From positions 1-64,000 of the forward strand of contig CAJIYJ010000003.1 of the NCBI GenBank assembly GCA_905181625.1: 64,000 bases of DNA, written 5' to 3'. Shown here one piece after another: positions 5,376 to 29,260 of the stretch (position 1 is its first letter; each line of letters opens with the position of its first letter). Source of the stretch: an uncultured Flavobacteriaceae bacterium. Its GTDB lineage: Bacteria; Bacteroidota; Bacteroidia; Flavobacteriales; Flavobacteriaceae. The position numbers were made by a program, and so were the translations under genes. Below the pieces are notes generated by a model, which saw nothing but the letters and a program-made list of their open reading frames with translations, had not been told where the DNA came from and did not search any database.

Positions 5376-5414
5376 AAAATTATAAAATTTATCATTAACT
5401 AAAAATAAAATAAA

Positions 5415-6017
5415 ATGAAAGCAATTAAACACAAGAGATTTTTTATTCCAGACAACGTTTTAGAATTAATGTTTGGTTTGGGTGCAGCTATTGTAATTAT
5501 AGGTGCTCTTCTAAAAATAACTCATGGAGATTTTATATTTTCTGGTAATGTATGGTTAACATTTGGTCTGATAACAGAGGCAATAATTTTCGGTATTTCT
5601 GGTGTAAAAGGCTATATGACGATAGATCCTGATGGTTTTGAAAGTGGAGATGACATAGAAACTCTTGAAGTTGAGACTCATGAACTTGCAAAGGCTGTAG
5701 CTACTTCAATAAGTAAGATCACCAAATTAAATGAGGACCTTGCTTCTGCAAGTTTGTCTATTGGTAAATTACATGTTCCTGCAGATATGAACAGCCATAT
5801 GAGTGAATATAATGCAAACATTCATACAGGAGCTGTTAAGCTAGGTGAAATCAATAAGCTTTATGAATCTTTAAGTAGTCATTTAGTGGAAGTTAATTCT
5901 TCAACCAGTGAAATGCACGTTCCTGAAGGATTAAATGAAGAGCTAGCTAAAATGAAAAATAAAGTTGCACAACTTAACGTGAAATACAAAGGTGTGCTTA
6001 ACGCTATGAATAATTAA
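5415..6017 (+). CDS. gldL: T9SS/gliding motor inner-membrane protein GldL
   Basis: GldL makes the stator-like proton-driven motor with GldM in the inner membrane. Two transmembrane helices are visible at about residues 15-34 and 45-63. The second contains Glu55 (LITEAIIF), matching the acidic residue this family uses for proton coupling. Lys34 closes the first helix. The rest is a helical, partly coiled-coil cytoplasmic domain rich in Ser and Glu. The length is 200 residues. It lies 39 bases after gldK and is followed by gldM after a 20-base AT-only spacer made of repeated TAATTAATAA units. Confidence 0.95.
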   Translation: MKAIKHKRFFIPDNVLELMFGLGAAIVIIGALLKITHGDFIFSGNVWLTFGLITEAIIFGISGVKGYMTIDPDGFESGDDIETLEVETHELAKAVATSISKITKLNEDLASASLSIGKLHVPADMNSHMSEYNANIHTGAVKLGEINKLYESLSSHLVEVNSSTSEMHVPEGLNEELAKMKNKVAQLNVKYKGVLNAMNN

Positions 6018-6037
6018 TAATTAATAATTAATAAATT

Positions 6038-7759
6038 ATGGCAGGAAAATTAGATACAAGGCAGAAAATGATAAACATGATGTATCTCGTGTTTATAGCT
6101 ATGCTTGCACTTAATATTGGTAAAGAAGTTCTTGCTACTCTAGGAAATTTAAGTAGTGATTTAGAGGCTTCAACTAGACAAGTTGAAACTGCCTCTGATG
6201 AAGTATATGCTAAAATAGCAGCTAATGCCAGTACCTCATTAAATTATGAGATACCGGCAATTATGGTTTTAAAAATGAAAAAAGAAGCTGACGATTTTTA
6301 TGATTTTATTCAAGTTATTAAAGATTCGTTGATAGTAGGTGAAGATGGAGTGAAAAATAAGTACCAAAACCAAGTTGTTGATAAGGAAACTGGTGAAAAG
6401 TTTTTTGTTACTTCTTATCAAGAAATGGATAAATCAGAGATTTTAGATGATATGTTTTTTGATGGAGATATCATGTCTGTTAAAGGAGAGGAATATGTGG
6501 CTAAATTCAAGAATTTTCCTAGCTCTATTAAGGATGTTGTCGAGGAATTAGTGTTTAGAGAAGAAGAATCTAAAGTAGCCAAAACTCAATTAGATGGTTC
6601 GAAACAAAAAGAATCTGTTGAAGTTGTTTATAATTTTGAGGCTGTAAATTCTGTTGCAAGTGAGCGTTTTAACTATTCTGAAAAAGTATTAAAAGAAGAT
6701 GGGACAAAGCAAGAATTTTTAAATTATAACTTTCAAGGATTTCCTGTGATTGCATCAATTGCGAAATTAACTAAAATCCAAAGTGATATAAGATTCATAG
6801 AAAATTCAGTTTTAAATGAAATTAACAACGCTCTTGGTGGTGGTAGTTTAAATTCTTTCCAGACTTTACTAGTTTCTGAAAAACCTACATTTTATACATC
6901 TGAAACGGTAAATGCTTCTATAGTAATGGGTAAAAAAGATGCTGCCTATGAGCCTGACAGAGTAGAACTTTTTATTAATGGAACTCAACTTAAAAAGACT
7001 GAATATTCCATTGTAAAAGGAGCAGTAGTTTTAAACAAAAGAATTCCATCAGCAGGGACTTATGATTTGACGGGATTTATTTATAAAAATAATGTTGATA
7101 CTCAGGAAGAAGAAAAAATACCAGTTAATTTAAAGTTAGAAATTACAAGAGAACCTAATTCAGCTGTTGTTTCTGCTGATAATATGAAAGTATTTTACAG
7201 AGGGCTTAGAAATCCAACTTCGATTTCTATCCCTGGAGTTGCAGCTAATACAATAGTTCCTTCTAGTAAAAACGCTAAATTTTCTAAATCTAAAAAAGGG
7301 TGGGCCGCTCAACCTACTAATTCTAAAGCTAAAGAAATGAAGATTACTGTTTCTGGAATGCTTAATGGGAAAAGAAAGAACTTTAATGGTGGAACTTTTA
7401 GAATATTAAATGCTCCCCCTGGAAAAGGTTCTGTAAAAGGAATGGGTAAAGTATTAAGAACAGGTCAATCTGGATCAAAAACTTTAATTAGTAATGGTCT
7501 TATAACAGGTGAAAAACCTAAGAATTTTTTCTATGATTATTCTATAGATGTTACAGGTTATGATATTAAAGTTGGTAATAATACATCGATATCAGTTAAA
7601 GGAAATAAAGTAAGTGCCAGTAAGGACGCTGCTAGAATTATTAAAAGTTCTAGTAAAGGAACTGTTGTGCAAATATTAAACATTAGAGCTAGTATGAGAG
7701 ATGGAGATGTTGTTACTCCAAATTACGAAGTTGAACAATTTTATATTATTATTGAATAA
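6038..7759 (+). CDS. gldM: T9SS/gliding motor protein GldM
   Basis: GldM anchors in the inner membrane and spans the periplasm as a dimer of stacked Ig-like domains, transmitting motor force to the GldK/GldN ring. The start MAGKLDTRQKMINMMYLVF is the family signature: a short cytoplasmic segment with Arg8, then one transmembrane helix (about residues 11-31), followed by a long periplasmic part. The four-helix first periplasmic region and the Gly/Ser-rich C-terminal domains (TGYDIKVG, NYEVEQF at the end) fit. At 573 residues it is somewhat longer than typical GldM. The stop overlaps gldN as TAATG. Confidence 0.95.
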   Translation: MAGKLDTRQKMINMMYLVFIAMLALNIGKEVLATLGNLSSDLEASTRQVETASDEVYAKIAANASTSLNYEIPAIMVLKMKKEADDFYDFIQVIKDSLIVGEDGVKNKYQNQVVDKETGEKFFVTSYQEMDKSEILDDMFFDGDIMSVKGEEYVAKFKNFPSSIKDVVEELVFREEESKVAKTQLDGSKQKESVEVVYNFEAVNSVASERFNYSEKVLKEDGTKQEFLNYNFQGFPVIASIAKLTKIQSDIRFIENSVLNEINNALGGGSLNSFQTLLVSEKPTFYTSETVNASIVMGKKDAAYEPDRVELFINGTQLKKTEYSIVKGAVVLNKRIPSAGTYDLTGFIYKNNVDTQEEEKIPVNLKLEITREPNSAVVSADNMKVFYRGLRNPTSISIPGVAANTIVPSSKNAKFSKSKKGWAAQPTNSKAKEMKITVSGMLNGKRKNFNGGTFRILNAPPGKGSVKGMGKVLRTGQSGSKTLISNGLITGEKPKNFFYDYSIDVTGYDIKVGNNTSISVKGNKVSASKDAARIIKSSSKGTVVQILNIRASMRDGDVVTPNYEVEQFYIIIE

Positions 7760-8616
7760 TGAAATTTAATTATACATCTATTTTAGCGTGTTTGTTTGTG
7801 TTAATATTTTTAGAGGGTTATGGTCAATCAAACCTTTTGAATGCTGTTGATCCAATAGAAATAGGTCAAAAGAATATTGATCAAAAACAATCCGATACAG
7901 ATTCATTCTTAGAGTATAATCTTATAGATGATAGAGATATTCTTTGGTCTAAAATTGTATATGAATACATTGATTTAGATGAAAAATTAAATTTCCCTTT
8001 GTTATTTCCAACCTATGATGATCCTAATGAAAGAATCAGAAAGTCTTTATGGCGCGTAATTAGGGAGAATATTATTGATGGAAAAATAACAAAAATTTAT
8101 CAAGGTGATGAGGATAATTTTAATTATCCTATGACCAATTTAGAAGCTAAAGAAAAAATATCTATTCAATTAGAATTTGCAGATGGATCTTCTATTCCTA
8201 AGGAAGTAGAGTCAACAGACATTTCCGGATATAAGATTAAAGGAATGTGGTATTTTGATAAAAAAATTGGAGAAATGCGCTACCGTTTACTTGGACTAAT
8301 GCCTGTTGGTGAAGATGTTAAACAAGATGAGGAACTAGACGAAAGGAATACTAATTTATTTTGGATTTGGTATCCTAGTATTAGAGAAGTTCTTCACGCT
8401 GCAGAAGTGTATAATGACAAAAATAATGCTACAAGAATCTCTTTTGATCAACTACTAGTTTCTAGACGATTTAATTCTTATATCTATAAAGAAGATAATA
8501 TGTATGGCAATAGATTTATTAAAGATTACAAAAAACCTGGTCTTGAATCTATTTTAGAATCTGAAAGAATTAAAAAAGAAATTCTTGACTTTGAGCAAGA
8601 TATGTGGAATAGATAA
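7759..8616 (+). CDS. gldN: T9SS ring protein GldN
   Basis: GldN (PorN family) is the periplasmic partner of GldK in the T9SS ring. An N-terminal signal peptide is visible (MKFNYTSILACLFVLIF..GYGQ). Family-typical features follow: WSKIVYEYIDLDEKLNFPL, then ERIRKSLW, then a region around IKGMWYFDKKIGEMRYRLLG and FWIWYPSIREVLHA. The length of 285 residues agrees with the family. The start is the ATG of TAATG at the end of gldM. This is the last gene of the gldKLMN set, followed by about 300 bases of non-coding DNA. Confidence 0.94.
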   Translation: MKFNYTSILACLFVLIFLEGYGQSNLLNAVDPIEIGQKNIDQKQSDTDSFLEYNLIDDRDILWSKIVYEYIDLDEKLNFPLLFPTYDDPNERIRKSLWRVIRENIIDGKITKIYQGDEDNFNYPMTNLEAKEKISIQLEFADGSSIPKEVESTDISGYKIKGMWYFDKKIGEMRYRLLGLMPVGEDVKQDEELDERNTNLFWIWYPSIREVLHAAEVYNDKNNATRISFDQLLVSRRFNSYIYKEDNMYGNRFIKDYKKPGLESILESERIKKEILDFEQDMWNR

Positions 8617-8915
8617 TTTTATTTTCCTATTATACTTTTAACTCTACCATCCGAATATTCAGCGAACTACTTTTATTATATAATTTCTTTTTTTATCCTA
8701 TTTTTTTCATTTAAAAAGATTATTTTCAAAACTTGCCCATTTCTTTTTTTTGATTTGAATGTTTTTACCGTATAATTATTCGCATATTATTATTTGAGAT
8801 TCACTTTAAATACAAAGCTTATATAAACATTTAACCAGGTATTGCGTCATTTTTAATAATTTTAATTTATTTAATTTTTCATTTTTTTCGTTATATCTAA
8901 CAATTATCCATCCAT
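8617..8915. other. Intergenic region between gldN and the giant surface-protein gene
   Basis: These 299 bases are very AT-rich, with many T-runs and no credible gene on either strand. TATTATTTG at 8788-8796 resembles a TAnnTTTG -7 box with one extra spacer base and could belong to the promoter of the giant gene, leaving a leader of about 110 bases. I see no strong intrinsic terminator hairpin for the gldKLMN operon. Confidence 0.4.
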
Positions 8916-11900
8916 ATGAAAAATTTTTTTTCCCTCATTTTTTTAACTACCTCATTATTTATCTATTCTAATCCGCCGGTTGATTTAATAGTTAAACCTG
9001 CAAAGTCTAGTCCTGCAATTGCTGCTCCAGAAACTTCATCTGCTACAATTACTGTTTTGGAAGGTTCAACTACTCAAATAGATCTTGCTTCTTACACGAC
9101 TGGAAGTCCAACTGGCTATTCTATTGTTTCTGATCCTGTACATAAATCAACGAATAGCGCTGGCCTCAATGGTACTTATTACTCATACACTCACAGTGGT
9201 TCTGAAGCACCTTCGGATTCTTTTACTTTTAAGGCATCCAATGGAGATGGAGATAGCAACACTTCCACTATTACAATTAAAGTTACTAATGTAAACGATT
9301 CGCCAACTATTGATGCGATTGATAAAACTGTTGAAGAGGGTTCCTCAGTTGAAATCACCGTTATTGGTAAAGATGCTGAAAACGCTGAGTTAACTATTAC
9401 TAACGGAAATGCAACTAATGGTACTGTTAACAAAGATGCAATTACTGGGCTTCTGACTTATACTCACAACGGTTCTGACACAACTTCCGACTCTTTTACT
9501 GTTACTGCAACAGAACTTGCCAACACTCAAAATGGGGGTAACAATTTACTTTCTGGAACTGCGACGGTAACCATAACTATATCAGCTGTTAATGATGCGC
9601 CAGTTGTAGCTGCTTCTAATATTGACGTTTCTGAGGGCGGTAGTTCTACAGGTGGACTTTTTAATGCCACTGATTCAGATAGTCAAACATTAACCTCCTC
9701 GGTAACTCAAAACCCAACTAATGGTACAGTTACTTTAGATTCAAACAACCCATTGAATTTTATCTATACTCATGACGGTTCAGAAACTAGTTCTGATGCA
9801 TTTACTTACAATATTTCCGATGGGGCGCTAAGCTCTTCTGCTATAGTATCAATAAATGTAACTGAAGTCAACGACGCTCCAACAGCAAACAATGACACTT
9901 ATTATATTTCTGGAGCAGCTTTTACTGTCACCATCCCTGGAATTGGTGTACTTGGTAATGACGTTGATCCCGAAGAAAATGATTTCACCGCTGTTCTTGT
10001 AACCAATCCAAGCTCTGGAACCGTTGTATTAAATTCTGATGGTACTTTTGTTTACACACCTACTATTGGTAATACAGAAGTTTTTAATACTGATTCTTTT
10101 ACTTACGCTGCTGTTGATGCAATTTCTGGATCCTCAGGCAACTCTGCAACTGTAACGTTTAATTATTCTACTTTAATTCCAATACCAGATTCTTATGTCC
10201 TCAACGAAGGAGAAACAATTACTATTGATCAAGTTAATGGATTGATTGCTAATGATTTAGACACAAACAATTTTTCGATTGATAGTCTTTGGGTATTTAC
10301 GCAACCTAAATATGGAACTATTACTTTAAACACAGATTTTAAAGGTGGGTTTACTTATGCTCATGACGGTTCCGAAAATTTAAGAGATGTTTTTGAGTAC
10401 AAAGTAAAAAACTCAAATGGAGATTTGTCTGAGAAAACTTTTGTTAATCTTTTTGCATCGAATGTTAACGATGCACCAACATCCAATGGAATGAGTGTTA
10501 CGTTGAATGAAGGAGCCGAGTCAATTTTTTCACTATTATACTCAGATAGCGATACTACAACTGATCAAATTGCTTTTACTATTGCCACACAGCCAACCAA
10601 TGGTAACATTATTGATTTAGGTGTGGGAAGTATTCGATACATTCACAACGGAGGAGAAACTACTTCAGATTCGTTCACTTACACTGTTAGTGATGGAGAA
10701 TTCACAACCGCCGCAGCTACGGTTTCAATTACAGTACTAGCTGTTAATGATTTACCAACGGCATCTAATTTAGACGTAACAGTTACCGAGGGTGGCACTT
10801 CTAGTGCTATAGCTGTCAACGCTACCGACATTGAGACTAACGATAATAATCTGACTTTCAAATTAGAGACAGGTGCTTCCAATGGAACAGTAGCTATTAG
10901 TAGTGCAGGTGTATGGACTTATACTCACAACGGAACTGAAACATCATCTGATAGTTTTACTTATTCAGCCAATGATGGAACAGCCAATGGTAACCCAGCG
11001 ACTGTTTCCATTACTATTACATCTGTTAACACCTCACCGTTAACAACGGCTGCAGCAATTGCTCTTAATGAGGGCGCTGCTGCTACATATGATTTGGCAA
11101 CCAACACGACTGATTCTGATACCAGTTCTGGAATTACATATATAATTGTTTCATTAGCTACAAATGGTGCTTTATCTGATGGCGGAACAACAATTGCCTC
11201 TGGGGATCTTCCTAAAACTGTTAACGGGAGCTTTAGATACATACACAATGGAGGAGAAACAACAACAGACTCTTTCACATTCAAGGCAAATGATGGCGCT
11301 AGTGATAGTAATATTTCAAAAGCTTCTGTTGCAGTGACAGCTGTAAATGACATTCCTACCATAACTGCAACTAGTGATGGTAGTGCTGATTATAATGTTG
11401 ACGAGAAGGATGTTGTGGCCATTTCCATTGAAGCAAATGATGTGGATTCTACAACATTAACCTATTCTGTTGTGACGGCTCCAACAAGTGGAACATTAAC
11501 AGCATCAGATGGTTCAGAACTTGCTAATGGAAATACTATTTCAGGAGGAACAATGACTTATACTCATACTGCTGATATTACTTCCAATGCAACTGATTCT
11601 TTTCAGGTCAAAGTGAATGATGGAACAGTCGACAGTGCCACAGCAACAATTAATTTAGCCATTACTGCTATAGATGAATCAAAACCTCAGGTTATCATTG
11701 AAGCTTATTCAAACTCTGTTTCAGAAGATGTTGGTACAGTTACAGTAACTGCAAGTTTGGTTAGTAATTCTTTTTATTCACCAAGAAGAGATATGAACGC
11801 AGCTGCTGTTTCAGCAAATACGATTAATTCTCTTGGCTATACTTATTTAGGAGAAGAAGGAGGCCATAAATATTACTTATATGCACAGGGAAATAATGGT

Positions 11901-11999
11901 GGAGCTCACAAGAATAACAGTCAAGCCAAAGCTGACGCATTAGCTAAAGGAGGTTATTTATTAGATGCTGCAGATTATGAGAACTTGGTTAAAGGGTAA
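8916..11999 (+). CDS. Giant T9SS surface protein, fragment 1: signal peptide, cadherin-like repeats, start of lectin-like domain 1
   Basis: First part of a gene that continues, through single-base frame breaks, to 24534. A signal peptide (MKNFFSLIFLTTSLFIYSNPP) is followed by about nine repeats of roughly 100 residues of the cadherin-like/tandem-95 type. They are recognised by recurring YTHNGSETTSDSFTY cores and VNDAPT linkers, near residues 127, 225, 318, 520, 614 and 812. The ninth ends near residue 925. A Calx-beta-like module then begins (SVSEDVGTVTVTASL) and is interrupted by a C-type-lectin-like domain starting at 11835. The frame ends at 11999, where the AAAGGG run appears to have one G too many. 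Removing it joins this frame to the next fragment. Base composition looks less AT-rich than that of the neighbouring genes. Confidence 0.85.
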   Translation: MKNFFSLIFLTTSLFIYSNPPVDLIVKPAKSSPAIAAPETSSATITVLEGSTTQIDLASYTTGSPTGYSIVSDPVHKSTNSAGLNGTYYSYTHSGSEAPSDSFTFKASNGDGDSNTSTITIKVTNVNDSPTIDAIDKTVEEGSSVEITVIGKDAENAELTITNGNATNGTVNKDAITGLLTYTHNGSDTTSDSFTVTATELANTQNGGNNLLSGTATVTITISAVNDAPVVAASNIDVSEGGSSTGGLFNATDSDSQTLTSSVTQNPTNGTVTLDSNNPLNFIYTHDGSETSSDAFTYNISDGALSSSAIVSINVTEVNDAPTANNDTYYISGAAFTVTIPGIGVLGNDVDPEENDFTAVLVTNPSSGTVVLNSDGTFVYTPTIGNTEVFNTDSFTYAAVDAISGSSGNSATVTFNYSTLIPIPDSYVLNEGETITIDQVNGLIANDLDTNNFSIDSLWVFTQPKYGTITLNTDFKGGFTYAHDGSENLRDVFEYKVKNSNGDLSEKTFVNLFASNVNDAPTSNGMSVTLNEGAESIFSLLYSDSDTTTDQIAFTIATQPTNGNIIDLGVGSIRYIHNGGETTSDSFTYTVSDGEFTTAAATVSITVLAVNDLPTASNLDVTVTEGGTSSAIAVNATDIETNDNNLTFKLETGASNGTVAISSAGVWTYTHNGTETSSDSFTYSANDGTANGNPATVSITITSVNTSPLTTAAAIALNEGAAATYDLATNTTDSDTSSGITYIIVSLATNGALSDGGTTIASGDLPKTVNGSFRYIHNGGETTTDSFTFKANDGASDSNISKASVAVTAVNDIPTITATSDGSADYNVDEKDVVAISIEANDVDSTTLTYSVVTAPTSGTLTASDGSELANGNTISGGTMTYTHTADITSNATDSFQVKVNDGTVDSATATINLAITAIDESKPQVIIEAYSNSVSEDVGTVTVTASLVSNSFYSPRRDMNAAAVSANTINSLGYTYLGEEGGHKYYLYAQGNNGGAHKNNSQAKADALAKGGYLLDAADYENLVKG

Positions 12000-12378
12000 A
12001 ATGAATACTGCCAATTTTGGTAATCACGAGTTTTGGATTGGTTTAAACTATAAATTATCTGCAGATGCTTACCAGTGGATAAATGGTGCTACTTATAGTG
12101 CTACTGAAGGTAGTAGTTCAAGGTGGGCCAGTGGAGAGCCTGGTAACACTTCAAATCAAGAAACCAATAGAGGGGTTACATTTGCCAAAGATTATGCTGG
12201 TTGGTATGCAAAACTTGAATCTAGTGACTTGCGTGGTTATGTCATAGAATTCGATAACAGTGTGAATGCCACTGCTGCTACCACTGTTAATTTAACTTAC
12301 TCAGGAGGAGCTCAAAACACAAGTGGTGATTCTACGGAGATTCTGGCGATGACTGGACTATTAACACTAATGCTATAA
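11965..12378 (+). CDS. Giant surface protein, fragment 2: C-terminal half of lectin-like domain 1
   Basis: Continuation of the giant gene in another frame; the true join to fragment 1 is near 11990. It completes C-type-lectin-like domain 1 (FWIGLNY, then YQWINGATYS, then WASGEPGN, ending in GYVIEFD near 12258). The host Calx-beta module then resumes (TTVNLTYSGGAQN). The frame is lost near 12340. Restoring one base there gives GDSGDDWTINTNAITIANG in frame with fragment 3. The nominal ATG at 11965 lies inside fragment 1 and is not a real start. Confidence 0.8.
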   Translation: MLQIMRTWLKGKMNTANFGNHEFWIGLNYKLSADAYQWINGATYSATEGSSSRWASGEPGNTSNQETNRGVTFAKDYAGWYAKLESSDLRGYVIEFDNSVNATAATTVNLTYSGGAQNTSGDSTEILAMTGLLTLML

Positions 12379-12413
12379 CAATTGCTAACGGCGCATCCTC
12401 AGCAACTGCTACA

Positions 12414-12929
12414 GTGACTGTCATAAACGACACAACTGCTGAAGGAAACGAATCGATTGTGATAACAGCAACAGCTGCAGATATTGACGTAGCCAGAGTA
12501 AAAGGGAGTAAAAAAATTGCTACAATTGAGATTCAGGATAATGAGTTAGCTATTGCTACCATGACTACAACAGCAACAAATGTAACAGTGACCGAAGGCA
12601 CGGATTCCTCTGTTGATATTATTGCCACTTTAGACTTCCCTAAAGCATTTGATAGTTCTGTTGCCTTGACTCTTTCGGGAACGGCAAGCTCAGGAACTGA
12701 TTATACCTCCAGTAATGAGGGGTTTGTTAATACGCTAAGTATGTCGGGAATGAGTAGTGTAAATGGCGTAGTTGTTGATGCTAGCGGAAATTATTATGTT
12801 GGTGATAGATTAAATAGATACATATACAAAATGACACCCTCTGGAACTGTAACTACTATTGGTAGTGGTAATGTTGTGATTTTGAAACTTCACCCAGCCC
12901 AGGATCTTCAGCTAAATTTAGGGAGATAA
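12414..12929 (+). CDS. Giant surface protein, fragment 3: Calx-beta modules and first blade of NHL propeller 1
   Basis: It contains the end of the first Calx-beta module (ATVTVINDTTAEGNESIVI). A second Calx-beta module follows (VTVTEGTDSS to SSGTDYT), interrupted at 12721 by the first six-bladed NHL-type propeller (first blade GVVVDASGNYYVGD). A missing base near 12858 ends the frame. Reading one frame over gives GDFETSPSPGSSAKFREIKD, which joins directly to fragment 4. Translation here depends on the upstream fragments. Confidence 0.8.
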   Translation: MTVINDTTAEGNESIVITATAADIDVARVKGSKKIATIEIQDNELAIATMTTTATNVTVTEGTDSSVDIIATLDFPKAFDSSVALTLSGTASSGTDYTSSNEGFVNTLSMSGMSSVNGVVVDASGNYYVGDRLNRYIYKMTPSGTVTTIGSGNVVILKLHPAQDLQLNLGR

Positions 12930-12934
12930 AAGAC

Positions 12935-15900
12935 ATGGATATCGACAGCAGCGGGAAAATATATTTTACTGATGGCTATTCCATTAGAATATTAGATCCA
13001 AGCAATGAACGTATTTATTATGTTGCTGGCTCAAATAATGGAGTTAATAGTGATTCCACCGTACCATCTGGAAGTGCAACATCAATTGCTACCGATGCAA
13101 GATTTTCGTATGGGTTAAGAGGAATTACTGTAAATGCTGCAGGTACCATTATTTATGTTAATGATGATAATCAAATAAAAAAGATATCAACATCAAATGG
13201 AGCGACAATTTTTACAAACTCTTTAAATGAAGATCATGATAAATCTATAGTAACTAATATTAATTACACCAATGAGTGGGGAAGAAGTAATGATGGTGAT
13301 GCGGCTAGTTCAGCTAGATTTGAAGGGCCTAGATCGATTGATACAGACAGTAATGGTGATATTATAGTTGCTGATTATTATGGTCTTAAAAAATTAACAG
13401 TTGGTTCTGAGTCTAGTGCACCTAAATTTTATAAAGTCTTACAAAAGGAGTGGGATGAAAAGGAAGGGTTAGTAATTGATTCAGCTAACAACATGTACTT
13501 TAGTTCAAAAGAAGGAAATTATATTTATAAATATGTTCCCTCATCAGGAAGCTTAATTAAAGTTCTCGATTCAGAGGATGGAACAGTTGATGGAGAAACA
13601 GCAAGTGCCAAAATATCTGGGCCAAGAGACATAGCTCTACATTCCAATGGAAATTTAGTCTTTGTTCAAAACAGTGATAAAAAAGTAAGAGAAATTGATT
13701 TTGCAGCTAAAATTAGAATTCCTGCAGGATCTCAATCGGGATCTTATACTTTAAACATTAAAGATGAATCATTTTATGAGGACAATGAATCAATACAAAT
13801 TGTTGGTGCTGGATCAGGTTTAAGTATTAATCCTATAAACATTTTCACAGTAGGCAGCGGAGGTTCTGCTGTTGATTATTTAAGTTTTGATAGTACTACT
13901 GCCAAAGATGACAATGCAACTGATGGAACTAATGGACTCGTGCTTGTTAGCGATGACAACGCACCTTCGGTTCAAGTCACTACTTCAACAACTACTATTC
14001 AAGAAAACGGAGGGGTAGCTACGGTTTCCTTTACTATAGGTGGAGCCGCTGAATCTGGAACAAAAATGGATTTAGATGATGGATTGAAAGATGAGTTTAT
14101 TTTTATAGGAAATTATCAAGACCACAAATATTACATTGCTCAAGAATGGAGAAGTTGGAATGAGGCCAAAGACCGTGCTACTGCACTTGGTGGGTACATG
14201 TTAACAATCAGTTCTCAAGCTGAAAATAATTTTATCCAAAATAATTTAGGAGATTTCAAGTGGGATTCTTATTGGCTTGGTTATTCTGATACAGCTGAGG
14301 AAGGAACGTTTGTATGGGCTAATGGAAGTGATGCTACTTACACCAATTGGAACGGTGGAGAACCTAATAACAGCGGAGACGAGGATGTAGTAGAATTTAA
14401 TGGTCATAATGGTAAATGGAATGATTTAAATATTAATGATGGAAGGTTCTTTATCATTGAATTTAGTGGAACCATTTCTGCTAAAGATGTAGTTGTTCCT
14501 TATTTAGTTACCAGGTCTACTGGATTCTCTGACACTAGCGGATCAGGTGGAGATGCTACTTTCACCAACTCAGGAATCGTAACAATTCCTGCAGGTCAAT
14601 CCAAAATTGACCTCACTTTAACAGGTGTTGACGATTCAGCTAACGAGGCCATTGAGACAATAACTTATACAATTTCTAATTCTGGTGGTGACCCACTATC
14701 TGATGGAACGGGTTCTATTAAAGATGGTACATATGATTCTGAAAATTCTGCGGTTTCTATTAATATAATTGATGATGAGGCGCCAGCAGTTACTTGGGCT
14801 TCAACAGCTATTAATTTTAATGAAAATGGAGGGTCTGTTACTATTACAGCAACAAGTGATCAAGCAAAATCAACTGCTAGTAAACTTAATTTAACAGTTA
14901 CAGATAGTGGTGCTACTCAAAATGTTGATTATTCGATTGCTGAGCTTGAAACTGTTAATACTTTGGCAGGAAGTTCTTCTGGTTTTAAAGATGGAGAGGG
15001 TAGTGATGTTAAGTTTAGACATCCTAGAAAAATTACTACCGATTCATCTGGAAATATTTATGTTGCAGACACAGATAATAATGTAATTAGAAAAATAACA
15101 ACAAGTGGAGTGGTAACGACTTATGCCGGTAACGGAGATTGGGCTCATGACAGAAGTACTGGAAACAAATTACAGGTTGGTTTTGCAAGACCTGTAGCTC
15201 TAGCCTTTAATAATGCTGGTGATGAATTATTTATTTCTGAGGAAGGAAGAAATAGAATTTCTAAAATTGATGCCTCAGGAAATGTATCTTTAATCTCTGG
15301 AACTGGTGAATGGGGAGATGAAGATGGAGATAAAAATACAGCTCAATATAATAGTCCCAGAGCTATTAGTTTCGACAGAGCTGGAAACCTTTATGTCGCA
15401 GAAAACCAAAAGATTAAAAAGCTAGTCATTGATGGTTCAGGAAATTGGGAAGCAACTACATTTGTTGGCTCTGGAAATTACGGTACAAATGATGGTACCG
15501 GAACTGATGCTGAGTTCAGACAAAGTGCAGCAATAGTTATTGACAAATCTGGAAGTGAGGATGTGATGTATGTGGGTGATGAAAATAGAATTAGAAAAGT
15601 AACTTTACCTGGAGGTGTTGTAACAACCTTTGTTAATGTTAATGATAACTGGGGAAGTACAGATGGGACGTTAAATTCAGCAATTATGAGACGGGTTAAT
15701 GGATTAGCTATTGACACATCTCAATCTGCCTTAACTATATATGCCACAGATGAAAATACAATTAGAAAAATTACAAATGATGGCGTCGAAACATTAGCTG
15801 GTGAAAATTACGGATTTCAAGACGGAAATTTTGCTTCTGCGGAATTTAAAAATCCAAGTGGAATTGTTGTAAACTCCTCTGGTATTTATATTGCTGACTC

Positions 15901-17728
15901 TGATAATCATAAAATCAGAAAAATTGATTTATTACCATCTATTACCATACTTGCGGGTCAAACCACTGGATCCATAACAATAAATGGTATTGATGATCAG
16001 CTGTATGAAAGTAATGACGAAGCTTTCACTCTTTCAGTTTCTTCAGTTTCCAACGTTGATACGACAAGTAGTGTTTATTCTAATCTTGTAACTTCAATTA
16101 CTAGTGATGATGCGACTCCAATAGTTAAATTAAGTGCTACGGAAGATATGGTAGATGAAAATGGAGGAACAGCAACAATAGTTCTAAGTTTAGCTGATGC
16201 CTTTTCAAGTGCAAAATCTGATATGAACGCCTCTGATAGATCAGACTTTTATTATCTTGGAGAGTATAGTGGTTCAAAATACTATGCCTCTAAAAATGAA
16301 GATAGTGGACGTAAAAGCTATTCGGATGCACTTTCAAATGCCACAAGTTTAGGTGGTCAATTGGCAGTAGTGACAACAGCTGGTGAAAACGATTTTATTA
16401 CCTCTAAAATTTACGAGAAAGATCCTGAATATAACTCAGAAAACAGAGAGTGGTTGAACCACTGGATAGGTCATGCATATGACTCTGATAACTCAGTTTG
16501 GGAATGGACTAATAGTGCCCAAAGTGATTATACTAACTGGGGGTGGGACTACAATCCAGACTATATTGACAAATTTTATACTCAAATTAGATACAGAGGA
16601 CTTTGGTTTAACGGTCAAAGTAACTGGAACTCACAATACATTGTTGAATTCTCCTCGGCTATTTCTGATGCTGATGCTCAAGCAGTTGTTGCTTTCTCTG
16701 GAGCTGGTACCACAGGTGGTGATTACACTACTAGTATAGGTGCGCCTGATGCCAATAGAACAGTAACAATTCCTGCTGGTCAGTCAAGTGCTAACATCGT
16801 TATTACTGGTGTTGACGATAGTGATGACGAGGCAATTGAAGACATTGTATTAACAGTAAGTTCACCAGATGCTGGTGCCAACTCAACTGTTGATTCAACT
16901 AATAATACTGCAACTATTTTAATTAGTGATGATGAAAAGCCGTCGGTTACTCTTGGATTAGATGTGGCGACTATTGGTGAGGTATCTTCTGAAGGAATTC
17001 CTGTTACTAGTACTTTATCTGCCAGTATTGTTAATGCTAAACTATACCCTGTTGATTTATCACTGGATTTTGTTAGTTCTGGAAGTGGAATTGCCATTTT
17101 TGGTAATGACTTTGGATCAGATGACTTAAATAGAGTAACCACCCTTGCTGGAGACGGTAATGATGGCTATGTTGATGGCGATGCGGATGAAGCAGAGTTT
17201 TCTGACGATTTACACAACGGTACAATTGACTCTCAAGGAAACTTGTATGTTGCAGATGGCTATAATAATGTCATTAGAAAAATAGCACCTGACGGTGAGG
17301 TGTCTACATATGCTGGAACAGGTAATTATGGGAGCGATAATGAGGATATTGATAAAACAGATGGAGATAAATTAGAAAGAACTTTAAGACGCCCTTTTTC
17401 TGCAAAAATCCACTCGGGATACATGTATGTTGTTGAACATGATGCACATCAAATCTCTAGAATTAATATGAGTACTGGAGTGTTATCACGTTATGTAGGG
17501 TTAAGATATCAAGAGGGAGATGATAACGGAAATGAAACGGAAGCTAAATTAAATAGACCTACTGATATTGGTTTTGATTCAAACAATATTATGTATGTAG
17601 TGGATCATGGAAACACCAAGATTAGAAAAGTAGAAGACAATGGTTCTAATCGAATTGTTACAGATTATGCTGGAAATGGAAATTATGGAAACCGTGATGG
17701 AAATGCCCTAGTAGAAGCTGATAGGTAA
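12935..17728 (+). CDS. Giant surface protein, fragment 4: lectin-like domains 2-3 and NHL propellers 1-3 inside Calx-beta modules
   Basis: The longest stretch of the alternating section. Order: rest of NHL propeller 1 (to 13711), with its Calx-beta host closing as IRIPAGSQSGSYTLNI. Then Calx-beta hosting lectin-like domain 2 (14091-14470; GGYMLTISSQAENNFI, NWNGGEPNN, KWNDLN). Then Calx-beta hosting NHL propeller 2 (14948-15937, six blades ending in RKIT- or RKID-like strands) and closing as ITILAGQTTGSITI. Then Calx-beta hosting lectin-like domain 3 (16241-16656; GGQLAVVTTAGENDFI). Finally the start of NHL propeller 3 (from 17128). Both insert types sit at consistent positions in their hosts. 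The frame ends at 17728, where one extra base separates it from GNFKVIVPDSNDNLYV in fragment 5. Confidence 0.85.
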   Translation: MDIDSSGKIYFTDGYSIRILDPSNERIYYVAGSNNGVNSDSTVPSGSATSIATDARFSYGLRGITVNAAGTIIYVNDDNQIKKISTSNGATIFTNSLNEDHDKSIVTNINYTNEWGRSNDGDAASSARFEGPRSIDTDSNGDIIVADYYGLKKLTVGSESSAPKFYKVLQKEWDEKEGLVIDSANNMYFSSKEGNYIYKYVPSSGSLIKVLDSEDGTVDGETASAKISGPRDIALHSNGNLVFVQNSDKKVREIDFAAKIRIPAGSQSGSYTLNIKDESFYEDNESIQIVGAGSGLSINPINIFTVGSGGSAVDYLSFDSTTAKDDNATDGTNGLVLVSDDNAPSVQVTTSTTTIQENGGVATVSFTIGGAAESGTKMDLDDGLKDEFIFIGNYQDHKYYIAQEWRSWNEAKDRATALGGYMLTISSQAENNFIQNNLGDFKWDSYWLGYSDTAEEGTFVWANGSDATYTNWNGGEPNNSGDEDVVEFNGHNGKWNDLNINDGRFFIIEFSGTISAKDVVVPYLVTRSTGFSDTSGSGGDATFTNSGIVTIPAGQSKIDLTLTGVDDSANEAIETITYTISNSGGDPLSDGTGSIKDGTYDSENSAVSINIIDDEAPAVTWASTAINFNENGGSVTITATSDQAKSTASKLNLTVTDSGATQNVDYSIAELETVNTLAGSSSGFKDGEGSDVKFRHPRKITTDSSGNIYVADTDNNVIRKITTSGVVTTYAGNGDWAHDRSTGNKLQVGFARPVALAFNNAGDELFISEEGRNRISKIDASGNVSLISGTGEWGDEDGDKNTAQYNSPRAISFDRAGNLYVAENQKIKKLVIDGSGNWEATTFVGSGNYGTNDGTGTDAEFRQSAAIVIDKSGSEDVMYVGDENRIRKVTLPGGVVTTFVNVNDNWGSTDGTLNSAIMRRVNGLAIDTSQSALTIYATDENTIRKITNDGVETLAGENYGFQDGNFASAEFKNPSGIVVNSSGIYIADSDNHKIRKIDLLPSITILAGQTTGSITINGIDDQLYESNDEAFTLSVSSVSNVDTTSSVYSNLVTSITSDDATPIVKLSATEDMVDENGGTATIVLSLADAFSSAKSDMNASDRSDFYYLGEYSGSKYYASKNEDSGRKSYSDALSNATSLGGQLAVVTTAGENDFITSKIYEKDPEYNSENREWLNHWIGHAYDSDNSVWEWTNSAQSDYTNWGWDYNPDYIDKFYTQIRYRGLWFNGQSNWNSQYIVEFSSAISDADAQAVVAFSGAGTTGGDYTTSIGAPDANRTVTIPAGQSSANIVITGVDDSDDEAIEDIVLTVSSPDAGANSTVDSTNNTATILISDDEKPSVTLGLDVATIGEVSSEGIPVTSTLSASIVNAKLYPVDLSLDFVSSGSGIAIFGNDFGSDDLNRVTTLAGDGNDGYVDGDADEAEFSDDLHNGTIDSQGNLYVADGYNNVIRKIAPDGEVSTYAGTGNYGSDNEDIDKTDGDKLERTLRRPFSAKIHSGYMYVVEHDAHQISRINMSTGVLSRYVGLRYQEGDDNGNETEAKLNRPTDIGFDSNNIMYVVDHGNTKIRKVEDNGSNRIVTDYAGNGNYGNRDGNALVEADR

Positions 17729-17735
17729 CTTTAAG

Positions 17736-18077
17736 GTGATAGTACCTGATTCAAATGACAATCTTTACGTAACAGCTGATGAAAGAATAAGAAAAATTTC
17801 AGCTGACGGATCTAACGTTTCAACCATTGCTGGACAGTGGCACGATTTTGCTGATGGTTATGGAACCAATGCTAAATTCCGAACACCTGAAGGACTAGCT
17901 ATTGACGCTAATGATAATATTTATGTTTCTGACAGAGGAAACCACAGGATAAGAAAAATTTCTGAGTTAACAAGTGCTAAGGGAGTTAAAGTAGAAACGA
18001 TTTCTGGTACTGGTGATTATGATTACCAAGACGGTACCAATGACCAGGCAGCATATAGAGATCCAATTCTGATATGA
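17736..18077 (+). CDS. Giant surface protein, fragment 5: blades of NHL propeller 3
   Basis: This holds blades four and five and the start of blade six of the third NHL propeller (NLYVTADERIRKIS, NIYVSDRGNHRIRKIS). Two more frame breaks follow, near 18064 and 18108. Between them the intended reading is NSDMTRLPGALFVVD, and after the second it is QDNRVRKVQITPKMTIPAGQ, which enters fragment 6. It is part of the giant gene, not a separate gene. Confidence 0.78.
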   Translation: MIVPDSNDNLYVTADERIRKISADGSNVSTIAGQWHDFADGYGTNAKFRTPEGLAIDANDNIYVSDRGNHRIRKISELTSAKGVKVETISGTGDYDYQDGTNDQAAYRDPILI

Positions 18078-18150
18078 CTCGTTTACCTGGTGCTTTATTT
18101 GTAGTTGATATCAAGACAATAGGGTAAGAAAAGTACAGATTACTCCAAAG

Positions 18151-21100
18151 ATGACAATTCCTGCTGGACAAACATCAGTTACTTACAACCTTTCATCAAT
18201 AAATGATATTGTTTATGAAACTGATGAAACTATTCAGTTCACTTCTAATTCTGTAGTTGGAGGAACTTTAGCTTCTACAGATCCAATTTCATTAATACTA
18301 AAAAGTGATGAGTTAATTCCAAATGTTGAAATAGACGCTGAAAGTTTAGTGCTTAATGAAGCGAATGGAACATTAGAACTGGAAGTGTTTTTAGTTGACT
18401 CTTCAGGGGCTTCAAGTAACTGGGAAAAAACAGAATTACCATCTGAGGCATCTAATGACTATGAGTTCATGGGTGAGTTTGAAGGTAATAAATATTACTT
18501 CTCAAGATTTAGTAGTAATTGGGCTAATGCCAATCAAAATGCCCTTGATTTAGGGGGCCAATTATTGGTAATTGATAGTCAAAACGAAAATGAGTTCGTC
18601 AATACTATTATGATACATAACGGTACTTGGTTAGGAACAAAAAGACAGGCTGGCGATCTGCTTGGACTAATGTTTACGGAACATCTTGTTTATGAAAACT
18701 TTGAAGATGATATTTTTGCTAATGGTTATGGTTATGCCTTGACTTACGGAAATAAGTGGTATAATCACAATGAGAATGATTACAGACACTATATTATTGA
18801 ATATGGTCCTGTTTCAAGTTCTGAATTGCCATCGACAGTTAACTTAGTGTTCTCGGACGCTGGTACTGCCACTAAAGGTGATGCAGCAGATGGAACGTCT
18901 GACTTTAAAGTTTCTGCTGAAACTGTTACTATTCCAGCAGGTCAGCAAAGTGCAACGGTTACCTTAACTGGTTTACAAGACGACAACGAAGAAGCTATTG
19001 AAAACATACTTGTTTCATTGGCTCTTCCTGAAAGTCCAGCAGTTGCTTTAGGTACATACACCTCATTGGATATTAAAATTAAAGATGATGAAAAACCTGT
19101 TGTAACTTTTGAAGCTTCCAGTAATTCTATTTCAGAAAACGGAGGAGAAGTTATTCTAACAGCCAATTTATCGAATGCTAAATTAGATCCAACTGTAATA
19201 GCTTTAGCCTTAGAAGGAACAGCAACTGCCTTAGAAGATTATAATGTGTCTTCAATTTATAAGTATACTAGTTTTGTTGGAAAAGCTGATGAACCAGGAT
19301 CTAGAGACGGCCTGGAAGATGCAGCAAGGTTTAATCAACCAATCTATATCACTAGTTATCTTAATGGATCTATGTTAGTTTCTGATCGTGATACTCATAC
19401 CATTAGACATATAGCTGCTGATGGAATAGTTTCTACAATTGTTGGTAAGGCTAATAGTTGTGGAGGGGATGATTCTGGACTAGCTTCAGATGTGAGAATA
19501 TGTAACCCTGGACAAATTGCTGTTATTAACGATGGCTCAGGTAAATTTATTTTCCATACCGATAATAGAATTTATATGTACGACCCTGATTATAATGACA
19601 CAGGCAAAAAAATGGTTATTGCATTACAAGATGGAATGGATAGAATTGGTGGTGTAGCTTTAAATTCTAATATACTTTATGTCAGTCAACGATATAAACA
19701 CACTGTTTTAGCTATTGACTTAACTGATGGATCAGAAACTACAGTTGTTGGTAAAGAAGATAGTTATAACGGTGATTTCTATTATGCAGATCCACTTGAC
19801 TTAACTGACGGTAGTCTTATGTATCCTGGAATGTTATTGTGGGATAATACAAGAAATCAGCTATACATTAATTCTGCTGGAATAGATTGGATGGAAACTT
19901 ATTGGTCAGATAGTTTTGTAGCAATAGCAAATTTCACAACTAATAAGGTTACGACAATGCATAATGTTATGGATTATTATTATAATCAATCGAGTAGTAA
20001 TGGAAACAATGCAAGCTTTAGGGCAATGGATTTAGATGCTGATGGAAATTTATATATTCCAGTATCTAACAGAAATGCAATTGCTAAAGTTAGTTTCAAT
20101 GAAGATGGAATTGCTTATGTAGCATTTAATATTACTGATGGTCGAATGTATAGTCCTTCATCTGTAGCCTATTCTAATGGATCGTTATTCTTATCTAATT
20201 ATTATGGACCAACAATCGATAAAATTGGACTTGGTGCCACTATTGAGATTCCTGCTATGGAAGTAACTAACAACATTACATTAGGAGCCTTTAAGGATCC
20301 ATTATTTGAGGAAGATGAAGTGATGGATATTAATGTGGCTAGTTTAACTAATGCAACTTCTGCAGATGCTGAAGTCGCTGATGTTACAATTATTGAGTCA
20401 ACTAGATTAACCTTAGTTGAAGATGCTCCTTTTGATGGGGTTGAAGATGGTAAAGTAAGTTGGGGAGATTATGATCAGGATGGCGATATGGATTTAGCTC
20501 TTATGGGACAAGGAAAAGATGGAACTATTACTAACGTTTATATTAATAACGAGGGAACTTTTTCAAATACAAATCAAAACTTTACCAAATTTATTGGAGG
20601 AGATATACAATTTGTAGATGTTGACCAAGATGGTTGGTTAGATGTAGCAGTTTCTGGTAATTCACCTGAAGGAAGAAAATCAGAACTCTATATTAATATT
20701 GAAGGAGCTTTCTTTGAATTAATGGAAGATTATCAAGTAATTGGATTATCTCAAAGTGAAATGGCCTGGGGGGATTTAGATAATGATGGAGATCCAGATT
20801 TAATTATGTCTGGTATAGATGAAGATAATAATTTTCAAACCTACTACTATACTAACCTTGGTGATTTTAAATTCTTAAATGAAGGTTTGTTTAACCAAGA
20901 TGGAGTTATTGGTGGTGAAATAGACGTGGTTGATGCGGATCAAGATGGAGATAATGATTTGTTTATTAATGGTACAGCAGGAAGTACAGGTAATCAATAT
21001 GTTCGTAGAAATAGTTTTGAAAATACTTATTATAGAGACGGGTATGATTCTGAAGGAGATAATAATATTAATCAATTTAATGTAGCTCCAGGATTTGTTG

Positions 21101-24100
21101 ATGGAAATACAATCTATGCTGATCTTGATGGAGATGGTGAATTAGATTTTTTAACAATGGGTTATGAAGATTCAAATAAATCTACAGTCAAAGTAGGTAC
21201 TAATTTATACGCTTTATCTACTCTTCCTTTATTAAAGAATGTTGACTTTGATTTTGCAGATTATAATAACGATGGTCAGAGTGATTTAATAATAGCTGGA
21301 GAAGATCCAAATACCGGAGTGGCTATAACTAAACTTTATACAACATTTCCTGAATATTTTGGAGATACTTATGGGCTTGTAGATTCACAACTAGTAATAC
21401 TAGGGCTTAGACAAAGTAGTACAGACTGGATTGATTATGATAATGATGGTGATCTAGATTTATTCTTAACCGGGTTAGATGATGCTGGTTTAGCAAAATC
21501 TCTTTTATATAGAGCGGATAACACCAATAATTTAAATTCTGCACCTAATAAAATTGAAAATCTAACGGCTACTCATGATGGTAATGGAACTGTTGAGTTT
21601 AATTGGGATGTGCCAACAGATAACATATCAAAGGAATTTAGGTATGATATAAAAATTGGAACAACTTCTGGAGGAACAGATATTGTGTATGCTAATAGTA
21701 ATGCTTTAACAGGATCAACATTAATTAACATTCCTTCTTTATCTACAATAAACGATAGAGAAGTTATATTAAATCCGGGCACCTACTATGCTTCTGTTCA
21801 AGCTATTGATGGAGGAAATAGAGGGGGACTTTTCTCAGATGAAATTTCTTTTACTATTGATTATGATTGGAAGGTGTTAAACTTAGGAGGTATAATCGAT
21901 AGAAGACTAGTTCCTCAAGAATCTTCTCAATTAGGATTCTTAGATATTGATGGGGATGGTGATAAAGATTTAATAAGCACTAATGTTGGGATGAATGCGA
22001 ATCCTAATACTCCTGGGCTTGAAGTTCCACAGAAATCAATAAACGTTTATGTTTTTGATAATGAAGTGTTTGTTCCAGTAAATATTTTCTTTGATGGGCA
22101 AGCCTCGTTTGAGTTTGGTGATTTTAATAAAGATGGTCAAAATGATATCATTGTAGCTGTTGAAGAAAATGGTGGAACTAGAGTTCACATGCTTTTAAAC
22201 ACTAGGTTATTAGATGATGCAAGGCCTGATGATTATAGAGATTACTTTTTCAGTTATAATCCTTTTAAAAATGGTGAAAACTTTATTGAAAGTGTTTATG
22301 ACATGAAATTTGCAATTAAAGATTTAGATAATGATGGTTTTGTGGAAATTATAATTGCCGGTCAGTCTTCTAAAATATCATCAGAAGCTTCAACTGTAAT
22401 GGCTATGTCATCAGTAATTCCAAAAGAAGGAAATGATGATGTTGGTTTTGATGGTTTTGAGCTTACTGAATCTGTTGGTGTAGTGGATGGAGATGTATTA
22501 AGTAATTTAAGTTATGCTTCATATGACTTTGGAGATATTGATAACGATGGAGATTTTGACTTCTTGATTTCAGGATATTCATTTGATGGATACAAGACTA
22601 TCCTTTTTGAAAACAAAAGAAAGGTTGATGAAAATCAAGTAGTTATTCAACCTCTACAAGTTTATTTTGAAGAAAAAGAAAATGACTTTGTTTCTGTAAA
22701 ACAAGGAACAACAGATTTTGTTGATTTCGACTCTGATGGAAAATTAGATGTTTTAATTAGTGGTCAATCTGGAGACGGAGACTTAGTTAAGGCTTATAAA
22801 AATAACTCAGAATCTTTTTCAGCGATTGACGTAGGTCTTCCCGCTGTTAGAGATGGAAGGTTTATTTTTGGTGATTTTGACAGTAATGGTTATTCTGATG
22901 TTGTTTATTCTGGAACTGTTAGTGGTCAAGGTAAAATTACTAAGATGGCCACTTGGGTTGCTGAAACTAACACGATGATTGATTCAGACCTTGATCTTTC
23001 TTACTATCAGGACGCTAATATTGGTGTTGCAGATTTTGATGGAGATTTAGATGCTGATCTTGTTATAACTGGTAAAAATAAGTTTGTTCTAGATAGAAAT
23101 GCTTATATCTCAGATGTTCTAATCAACGTTAGAGGATTTGCAGGTCCAGTTGATGGAGGTATAGTAAATGATGGCTCTGGGGATATCTTTAGAGAAGGAG
23201 TTTTAGAAGGTAAACCATTAAAGAAAGCAGTTGGTGTAAAAAAAGTATATGGTTTAAATGCTAGACCAAATGCTCCTACAGATGTTTCTTTCTCACGACA
23301 GAGATTGGGTGTAGCAAGAACTGATGGGGATGATGGTATAAAAACTTCAGAAGCAAACGGGGCATCAGCAGATGTTGCTAAATTCGAGCTTTTAATAAGT
23401 TGGTCTGGTGCAACTGACACAGATGCCGATGGTTTAAGAACCCCGGATGAAGGTTTAACCTATTCTGTAAGAGTAGGAACAACTCCAGGAGGTGAAGAAA
23501 TTCTAGCTAGTGGAGCCGATCAAGATGGTATTAAAACTGCTGCTGATTCAGGAAATGCAGAAAACAATACAACATGGAAAATTGCTGTTCCAGTTGGTGT
23601 TTATTATGTGGCTATCCAATCAATTGACGGAAGTTTTATAGGTTCTGAATTTAGTACAGAAGTAGAATATCCAGTAACTAATAGTTTAAAACTTGGTGAT
23701 GCTAATGGAGATGACGGAGTTAATATATTGGATTTAACTACTAATGTAGAAAAAGCATTAGGTGGCAACCCAGTACCGTTTAATATGGATGTTGCTGATG
23801 TTAATAATGATGGATTAATTAATGCGCTTGATATTTCAGCTATAGTAAACCTTATTTTAAATGGTGAAGGTGGAGTAGCAAGAGGCTCTAACTACGATCC
23901 TTATGATTGGGAATATTTCTCTAATAAACCTGTTGGTGAAGCTAGTTTAGTTTATACTCGTGATAGGGTTTACTTAGAAAATGATAAGGATGTAACTTCA
24001 TTACAATTTACAATTGATTCAAACATTCAATATGAATTATCTAAAGAAATGGATAATTTGAATGTTGTAACTTTTGTTAAAGAGAGTAAGAGAACTTTCA

Positions 24101-28296: not shown

Positions 28297-28720
28297 TGGA
28301 ATAGGTGATGTTTGTGATGACGATAAAGATGGCGACACGATACTAAACGATGTTGATAACTGCCCTACTATTGCTAATACCGACCAAGCCGATTTAGATG
28401 AGGATGGGATAGGCGATGTTTGTGATGATGATAAAGATGGCGATACCATACTAAATGATGTTGATAATTGTCCAACGACTGCGAATACCGACCAAGCCGA
28501 TTTAGATGAGGATGGGATAGGCGATGTTTGTGATGATGATAAAGATGGCGATACCATACTAAATGATGTTGATAATTGTCCAACGACTGCCAATACCGAT
28601 CAGGCTGATTTTGACTCAGATGGATTGGGAGATGTTTGTGATACGGATGCTGATGGAGATGGTATATTAAATACAGAAGATGATTGTGCTAACACTCCAT
28701 TAGGATCTAAAGTAAACACT
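27583..28720 (+). repeat. Thrombospondin type 3 repeat array with near-identical DNA repeats
   Basis: A run of about eleven calcium-binding repeats follows the pattern DNCPTxANTDQxDxDxDGIGDVCDxDxDGD. Within it, two DNA-level families are nearly identical from copy to copy: a 105-base unit around 28038-28283 (DSDGDTIFDSN type) and a 108-base unit around 28320-28600 (DKDGDTILNDV type). The frame break near 28285 lies where one family meets the other. Spacing was checked from the recurring GACAACTGCC and GATAATTGTCC words. Confidence 0.88.
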
Positions 28721-29260
28721 AAAGGATGTGTAGTTTTTGAATTACCAGTTAACAACAATAAAGTTGAGGTCACTAGCGCCACTTGTATCGGCACTACTGA
28801 TGGATCGATAGGACTTAGTGTAGAAGATGCTTCTTTTGATTACAGCATTACTGTTACTGGCAAGGACGATCCAGTCGCTATTACTGGTGAGAACAAGACG
28901 GCTTCTATAACAGGACTTGCTGCAGGCACTTACTCGGTTTGCTTTAAAGTAACAGGTCAAGAAGCTTACGAGCAATGCTTTGAAGTGGTCATAGGCGAGC
29001 CTAAAGCTCTAAGTGCATTTATTGATATAGATAACGATAACAAATCAACAAGTATTCAGTTAGGAGGTTCTAATAACTATAATATAGAGGTTAATGGCGA
29101 GAGATTTGAAGTGAAGGGTGATAATTTTAATACGACTCTTCCAACAGGTCTTAGTATTATTAAGATATCAACGAACCTAGATTGTCAAGGCGTAATAGAA
29201 AAAGAGATCTTTATCTCTGAAGACATTCATTACTACCCTAACCCAACAGAAAGGATGTAA
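28289..29260 (+). CDS. Cohesin/TSP3 surface protein, fragment 2: TSP3 repeats and pre-sorting domains
   Basis: Continuation of the gene starting at 24541. Four further TSP3 units are followed by a segment with paired Cys (TSATCIGTTDGSIGLSV, TYSVCFKVTGQEAYEQCFEVV). This resembles the beta-sandwich often placed before sorting domains in flavobacterial proteins. The sorting domain begins as YYPNPTE and the frame is lost at about 29250. Another frame continues it as NVHVSGEDTRVMVSVFSEKG to the stop at 29462. The ATG at 28289 is not a real start. Confidence 0.8.
   Translation: MSDGIGDVCDDDKDGDTILNDVDNCPTIANTDQADLDEDGIGDVCDDDKDGDTILNDVDNCPTTANTDQADLDEDGIGDVCDDDKDGDTILNDVDNCPTTANTDQADFDSDGLGDVCDTDADGDGILNTEDDCANTPLGSKVNTKGCVVFELPVNNNKVEVTSATCIGTTDGSIGLSVEDASFDYSITVTGKDDPVAITGENKTASITGLAAGTYSVCFKVTGQEAYEQCFEVVIGEPKALSAFIDIDNDNKSTSIQLGGSNNYNIEVNGERFEVKGDNFNTTLPTGLSIIKISTNLDCQGVIEKEIFISEDIHYYPNPTERM

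Follow-up and report, generated by a model that had tools for sequence, protein, structure and literature searches.

A giant flavobacterial protein with C-type-lectin-like and NHL propeller domains alternating inside Calx-beta modules, and its predicted type IX secretion

Closest described proteins and the order of modules

The described proteins closest in composition to the giant protein examined here are those of the FRAS1-related family, FREM1/CBCP (PMC514892, PMC8346017). In the passages of PMC8346017 considered here, FREM1 is presented with one Calx-beta domain (1731–1820) and one lectin domain (2052–2179) that lie apart, and no NHL propeller is mentioned. The giant protein is encoded in a stretch of 64,000 nucleotides (positions 1–64000 of contig 3, referred to throughout as the window) from the genome of an uncultured Flavobacteriaceae bacterium (1.86 Mb in 8 contigs, completeness estimate 90.6 %). 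Like the FRAS1-related proteins it also carries Cadherin_3 repeats, but its lectin domains and its NHL propellers, four of each, lie inside Calx-beta domains, and membership of the FREM/FRAS1 family, characterized in these passages by CSPG repeats, Calx-beta and a separate lectin, was rejected on this account.

Counterparts of the individual inserts are the C-type mannose receptors and DC-SIGN, which are the nearest solved relatives of the second lectin by both sequence and fold, and the six-bladed NHL and teneurin-like propellers, which the second propeller resembles in sequence (TEN_NHL and NHL) and in fold; unlike these, the propeller of the window sits inside a Calx-beta domain. In phrase searches of the open literature, we found no description joining Calx-beta with C-type lectin and NHL repeat, domain insertion or type IX secretion, and nothing on C-type lectin together with NHL repeat in Bacteroidetes. 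We rate the domains and the export route as known, and the nested alternating layout as one for which no description was found.

Profiles of the separate parts were built from the window and from locus L029 (genome G017, CAJIYP010000001.1, Cryomorphaceae bacterium BACL29), the closest named relative found, with 98 % protein identity over a 733-residue query, and were then run on further relatives. (The taxonomy of BACL29 differs between sources, NCBI placing it in the Cryomorphaceae and a table seen in PMC4699468 in the Flavobacteriaceae.) In the window and in the relatives, the parts follow one order, repeated four times: Calx N-part, lectin, Calx C-part, Calx N-part, propeller, Calx C-part. 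The lectin modules (C1–C4) and propeller modules (N1–N4) of the window, all on the + strand, are as follows.

11676–12545, +: module C1, with Calx N-part 11676–11771, lectin 11832–12261 and Calx C-part from 12262; internal frame breaks (profiles; orthologous module of L029)
12546–13954, +: module N1, with Calx N-part to 12722, propeller 12723–13702 and Calx C-part 13703–13954; internal frame break (profiles)
13955–14776, +: module C2, with Calx N-part 13955–14056, lectin 14090–14470 (EPN and WND) and Calx C-part 14477–14776 (profiles, fold matches)
14777–16108, +: module N2, with Calx N-part 14777–14944, propeller 14945–15931 (six blades modelled) and Calx C-part 15932–16108 (profiles, model)
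16109–16933, +: module C3, with Calx N-part 16109–16210, lectin 16244–16657 and Calx C-part 16664–16933 (profiles)
16934–18309, +: module N3, with Calx N-part 16934–17125, propeller 17126–18141 and Calx C-part 18142–18309; internal frame breaks (profiles)
18310–19089, +: module C4, with Calx N-part 18310–18414, lectin 18457–18807 and Calx C-part 18817–19089; two cancelling shifts in the lectin (profiles)
19090–20391, +: module N4, with Calx N-part 19090–19254, propeller 19255–20232 and Calx C-part 20233–20391 (profiles)

The eight-module, alternating, nested layout is thus confirmed in the window. A preliminary description, made from the sequence alone, had placed eight inserts here, and its landmark positions agree with ours within approximately 10 bases. 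The strict alternation that it reported, with a lectin in the odd and an NHL propeller in the even modules, recurs in the same order in L029/G017, G002 and G012.

Insertion sites in the Calx-beta domain

There is a strong case that the propellers interrupt Calx-beta after the TDYxxS segment and ahead of the ITIPAG strand. Every insert-length deletion of the L029 modules was scored against a profile of 33 unsplit Calx domains from other genera. The search that gathered these domains was seeded with the four unsplit modules of another giant protein in the genus, L037 (G016, 8638–19998, − strand). Without the propeller, the scores of N1–N4 rose from 18.4, 21.1, 24.6 and 13.3 to 49.1, 45.0, 41.3 and 42.9 bits (a gain in four of four), and the true cut ranked 5/147, 3/119, 2/124 and 1/113 among the slid cuts. 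An increase of about two- to threefold at the correct cut argues against a tandem arrangement, in which every sandwich would be whole and complete Calx-beta domains would simply take turns with lectin and NHL domains. So do the best Pfam Calx-beta (PF03160) stretches in the uncut sequence, which are half-domains both in the window (52–118, 48–118 and, in the last open reading frame (ORF), 2–57, of 119) and in L029 (45–118). When the inserts were removed, the Pfam matches spanned the join broadly in six of the eight L029 modules (N1 weakly, at 12.3 bits).

L037 shares the Calx[NHL] module with the window protein and has five of them, but there they alternate with four unsplit Calx modules and no lectin match is found. 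An alignment of the unsplit L037 modules with one from another genus, in L090, shows them passing uninterrupted through both insertion points. This is again at odds with tandem domains, and to judge from this alignment, the unsplit L037 modules represent a natural empty site. A smaller protein, L126 (G013), also shares the Calx[NHL] module with the window protein but has a single one, near its N-terminus.

The evidence is moderate that the lectins are inserted past the first strands (A and B) and ahead of strand C of Calx-beta. In profile–profile comparisons of the lectin-module flanks (16 copies), the C-part alone aligned with template columns 28–86 (score 74.4) and the N-part alone with columns 2–23 (E 0.0018), and this complementary coverage also counts against the tandem arrangement. 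Joined, the two parts covered columns 2–86 with a score of 83.5, whereas controls using lectin sequence (75.5) or a reversed N-part (74.6) kept to columns 28–86. Several results weigh against this placement. The N-part alone reached a probability of only 14.9 %. Removal of the lectin from the L029 modules brought a small gain in C1 (36.0 to 37.9 bits), C3 (39.9 to 43.5) and C4 (38.7 to 41.4), and the true cuts of C1–C4 ranked 22/131, 35/138, 12/128 and 4/130. For C2 the score dropped instead, 24.1 bits with the lectin becoming 21.7 without it, and this lack of any gain is a point in favour of the tandem arrangement.

Structure models were also built. The AlphaFold model of unit 2 (C2 with N2, 718 residues, 7-row alignment) had a mean predicted local distance difference test score (pLDDT) of 64.9 and a predicted template modelling (TM) score of 0.54, and the mean pLDDT for C2 alone was 55.8. 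This low confidence has to be set against a split Calx-beta domain, as does the lack of any Calx-beta entry among the best 50 fold matches listed for either model; both would suit the tandem arrangement. Within the unit-2 model, the propeller is mostly above pLDDT 80 and has 24 strands forming six blades of four, and Foldseek matched it to teneurin-like and NHL propellers (TM score by target up to 0.83); the C2 model matched DC-SIGN-type lectins (E ~7e-4, TM score by target 0.54). The flanks, mostly at pLDDT 36–76, have the strand order expected for split Calx sandwiches. Modelling of the composite modules, a check that had been suggested, agrees in strand order and insert identity; the models back the inserts and are compatible with split Calx-beta, but fall short of proof. 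The preliminary description had counted six blades in each propeller, and the model of propeller 2 shows this number; propellers 1, 3 and 4 were identified by sequence only. Taking these results together, we consider the tandem arrangement most improbable. Split Calx halves with two insertion sites, as originally proposed, are borne out by the slid-deletion scores, the controlled profile–profile comparisons and the natural unsplit modules, strongly for the propellers and moderately for the lectins, and whole, unsplit Calx domains in tandem were not found in the giant protein.

The flanks might alternatively form a split beta-sandwich of another family that merely resembles Calx-beta. Only two of the eight joined modules (N2 and N4) exceed the Pfam Calx-beta cut-off, N1 being weak and N3 giving no match, which tells against the Calx-beta assignment. 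LapA (PF20579) gave a weak match in five of nine sequences tried, and the unsplit control module of L037 matched LapA but gave no Pfam Calx-beta hit even at E 1. This miss of an unsplit domain indicates that the Pfam model is insensitive for these domains. On the other side, the joined flanks of seven of the eight L029 modules score 38–49 bits against the unsplit domains of other genera (C2, 21.7), and the profile spans both halves in seven of the eight, C4 aligning over columns 26–84 only. As that profile was itself seeded from L037, the family name Calx rests on Pfam. On balance, we regard a different family as very unlikely.

The inserted domains, export and neighbouring genes

Four stretches of L029 match Lectin_C (PF00059) and, with the fold matches of C2, identify C-type lectin-like domains by sequence and fold. 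In the window, the ORF carrying lectins 2 and 3 is above the Pfam cut-off (65.4 bits) and the pieces carrying lectins 1 and 4 are below it. Among solved structures, those nearest to lectin 2 in sequence, at E ~1e-16, are DC-SIGN and chains of the mannose-receptor family, the latter matched in several of their domains. The EPN...WND motif is that of a calcium-dependent sugar site. It is present at lectin position 2 in 6/6 relatives and at positions 1, 3 and 4 in 0/6, 0/7 and 0/7, respectively, so that by this motif a calcium-dependent sugar site is predicted for lectin 2 only. Lectin 2 thus shares a site of this type with the mannose receptors and DC-SIGN, while lectins 1, 3 and 4 lack the motif, and cysteine, in a further difference from those proteins, occurs in none of the 26 lectin copies examined.

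NHL and TEN_NHL are both above cut-off in the window, and the assignment as an NHL propeller draws on model and fold for propeller 2 and on sequence for the other three. The fold matches include virginiamycin B lyase and PAL, and the propellers could conceivably be enzymes or sensors and the whole protein a surface-bound processing machine. However, the propellers match NHL/teneurin and non-specific families by sequence, and the neighbouring domains of the protein are of adhesion type, making this unlikely in our view.

The remaining features of the giant protein and its surroundings are as follows.

3888–8616, +: gldK-like, gldL, gldM and gldN, type IX secretion system (T9SS) genes (Pfam FGE-sulfatase, GldL_N, GldM domains, GldN)
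3888–5375, +: gldK-like gene (FGE-sulfatase match; gldK name from position)
5415–6017, +: gldL (GldL_N)
6038–7759, +: gldM (GldM domains)
7759–8616, +: gldN (GldN)
8916–11675, +: N-terminal part of the giant protein, with a signal-like start (by eye) and Big_9/Cadherin-type repeats (Big_9, 9 stretches; Cadherin_3, 6 stretches)
20467–22161, +: FG-GAP-like repeats, approximate limits (PF13517, 5 stretches, best 787–848; PF01839, best 1336–1351; ORF P0006)
23689–23892, +: dockerin type I domain (PF00404, E 1.2e-9)
24286–24531, +: type IX sorting tail (PF18962, E 2.1e-11; TIGR04183, E 8.7e-8)
24541–28296, +: neighbouring secreted protein, with a cohesin-like domain at 24604–25005, then cadherin and thrombospondin type 3 repeats (PF00963 and Pfam)

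The C-terminal sorting tail, for which PF18962 and TIGR04183 are both above cut-off, marks the giant protein as a predicted T9SS cargo. From this tail, the gldLMN genes upstream and the domain make-up, we infer that it is likely to be a T9SS-exported multivalent adhesin with eight interrupted Calx-beta sandwiches, in which lectin and NHL heads alternate. It would be a secreted surface protein of approximately 5,000 residues, exported by the T9SS encoded next door, with eight Calx-beta sandwiches in a row forming its middle. Modules 1, 3, 5 and 7 would each hold a C-type-lectin-like head between strands B and C, and modules 2, 4, 6 and 8 an NHL propeller head before the strand starting ITIPAG, the sandwiches probably serving as a stalk with two kinds of head-bearing loop. 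Mannose-type glycans may be bound by lectin 2 with calcium, and different ligands by the propellers and the remaining three lectin folds.

A broader proposal, which we rate about as likely as not, is that Calx-beta acts in this lineage as a display scaffold with two sockets, the B–C loop taking lectins and the loop before ITIPAG taking propellers, that the genus has two-head, one-head and empty-socket versions, and that one lectin keeps its sugar site while three have been repurposed. Domain nesting is already known; what differs here is that two nested heads alternate at two loops of one scaffold, four times, and that this is kept across species of the genus. The protein would be a clear natural example of a structural repeat turned to multivalent display. 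It lends itself to testing how repeats divide labour, one lectin having retained the sugar site. It may also offer protein engineers sockets that are ready-made, and it is a candidate for an attachment organ of small marine flavobacteria.

With a dockerin in the giant protein and a cohesin-like domain encoded by the next gene, the two may form a docking pair, through which the giant protein may be attached to its neighbour. The cohesin-like domain is just below cut-off (PF00963, E 1.7e-4, 22.2 bits versus 24.1), and a search of solved structures with it found no cohesin, all matches being at E 0.33 or worse. As separate observations on the next gene, its orthologues in L030 and L031 also give weak cohesin matches, and it includes a choice-of-anchor D stretch at 24973–25299 (above cut-off) and a plastocyanin-like stretch at 26344–26580 (below cut-off), which together with thrombospondin type 3 repeats make an odd combination. 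Its thrombospondin type 3 region carries on in another frame at 28289–29260, and in the relative L031 this gene has a 1588-residue open frame.

Frame breaks, distribution and evolution

The giant gene of the window is split over several frames by eight frame-shifting indels (11971–18684) relative to L029, where these breaks are absent and all eight modules lie in a single 4465-residue frame. Homopolymers at the indel sites are no more than 3 long, which would fit a decayed gene whose protein is not produced whole, as would the frame change in the thrombospondin region of the next gene. However, two of the eight shifts cancel each other inside lectin 4, protein identity to L029 is as high as given above, and G002 and G012 have intact frames. 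L029 is itself broken upstream of its long frame: from 4550 to 7262, where the window is open, it lacks any frame of 250 residues, which is consistent with misassembly of a repetitive gene. Hence, decay appears to us a rather doubtful explanation.

All four units are found in L029/G017, G002 and G012, and in G014 they are spread over two ORFs; in G012, the first Calx N-part is unmatched by its profile. Contig ends truncate the array in the fourth unit in G015 and G016, G013 begins inside the second unit, and G019 has only a 3 kb piece. A two-module query gave some match in 14 of the 22 genus genomes, several of them to the lectin alone, and the Calx[NHL] profile matched 10 of the 22 at E 1e-10, nine of them (all but G006) over the module length. 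The 13 genus genomes without the array are 64–86 % complete, and its absence from them is therefore uncertain. G005 and G010 have no such gene within 18.9 kb beside gldN, and in G020 a protein start of similar appearance (by eye) follows gldN and is ended by the contig edge.

Trees were built for the lectins (26 copies) and the propellers (25 copies) of seven relatives; the program flagged long branches. Each array position formed one group across genomes, a result equalled by shuffled labels in 0 of 200 trials, and this grouping indicates that the four-unit array predates the split of the sampled species. Three groups fell below starred support, namely lectin position 2 (94/96) and propeller positions 2 (78/74) and 3 (91/90). 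Duplication of a Calx[lectin]-Calx[NHL] pair, as put forward in the preliminary description, remains the simplest reading of the alternation, though the trees leave the order of duplication unsettled.

The alternation was recovered in other genomes of the genus, but outside it no composite module was seen in the scanned regions of the sampled genomes. These samples overlap and cover part of the order and phylum, and only part of the matches were scanned. In the family sample, 75 of 299 genomes, own genus included, had some match, and none of the 18 regions scanned held a lectin or propeller flanked on both sides by Calx halves. A query over the propeller-to-Calx junction matched 84/395 genomes in the order sample (seven regions scanned) and 34/395 in the phylum sample at E 1e-6 (one matching region, in G694, scanned). 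The Calx[lectin] profile matched 71/296 genomes of the order sample at E 1e-6, from which 12 regions and loci L100–L103 were scanned. Matches reaching into the Calx part of this profile (of 270) came from G330 (56–268), G542 (55–245), G390 (19–200) and G336 (20–187), and in these four the Calx part was not confirmed by the half-domain profiles at E 0.05. L102 (G414), where a lectin lies between Calx-like C-part matches, was rejected as a further case as the domains appear separate by eye.

In another family of the same order, a lectin in L105 (5022–8732, + strand; residues ~225–400) seems, on visual reading, to break up a PKD-like domain. To judge from this locus, lectins may be inserted in the loops of sandwich domains more widely.

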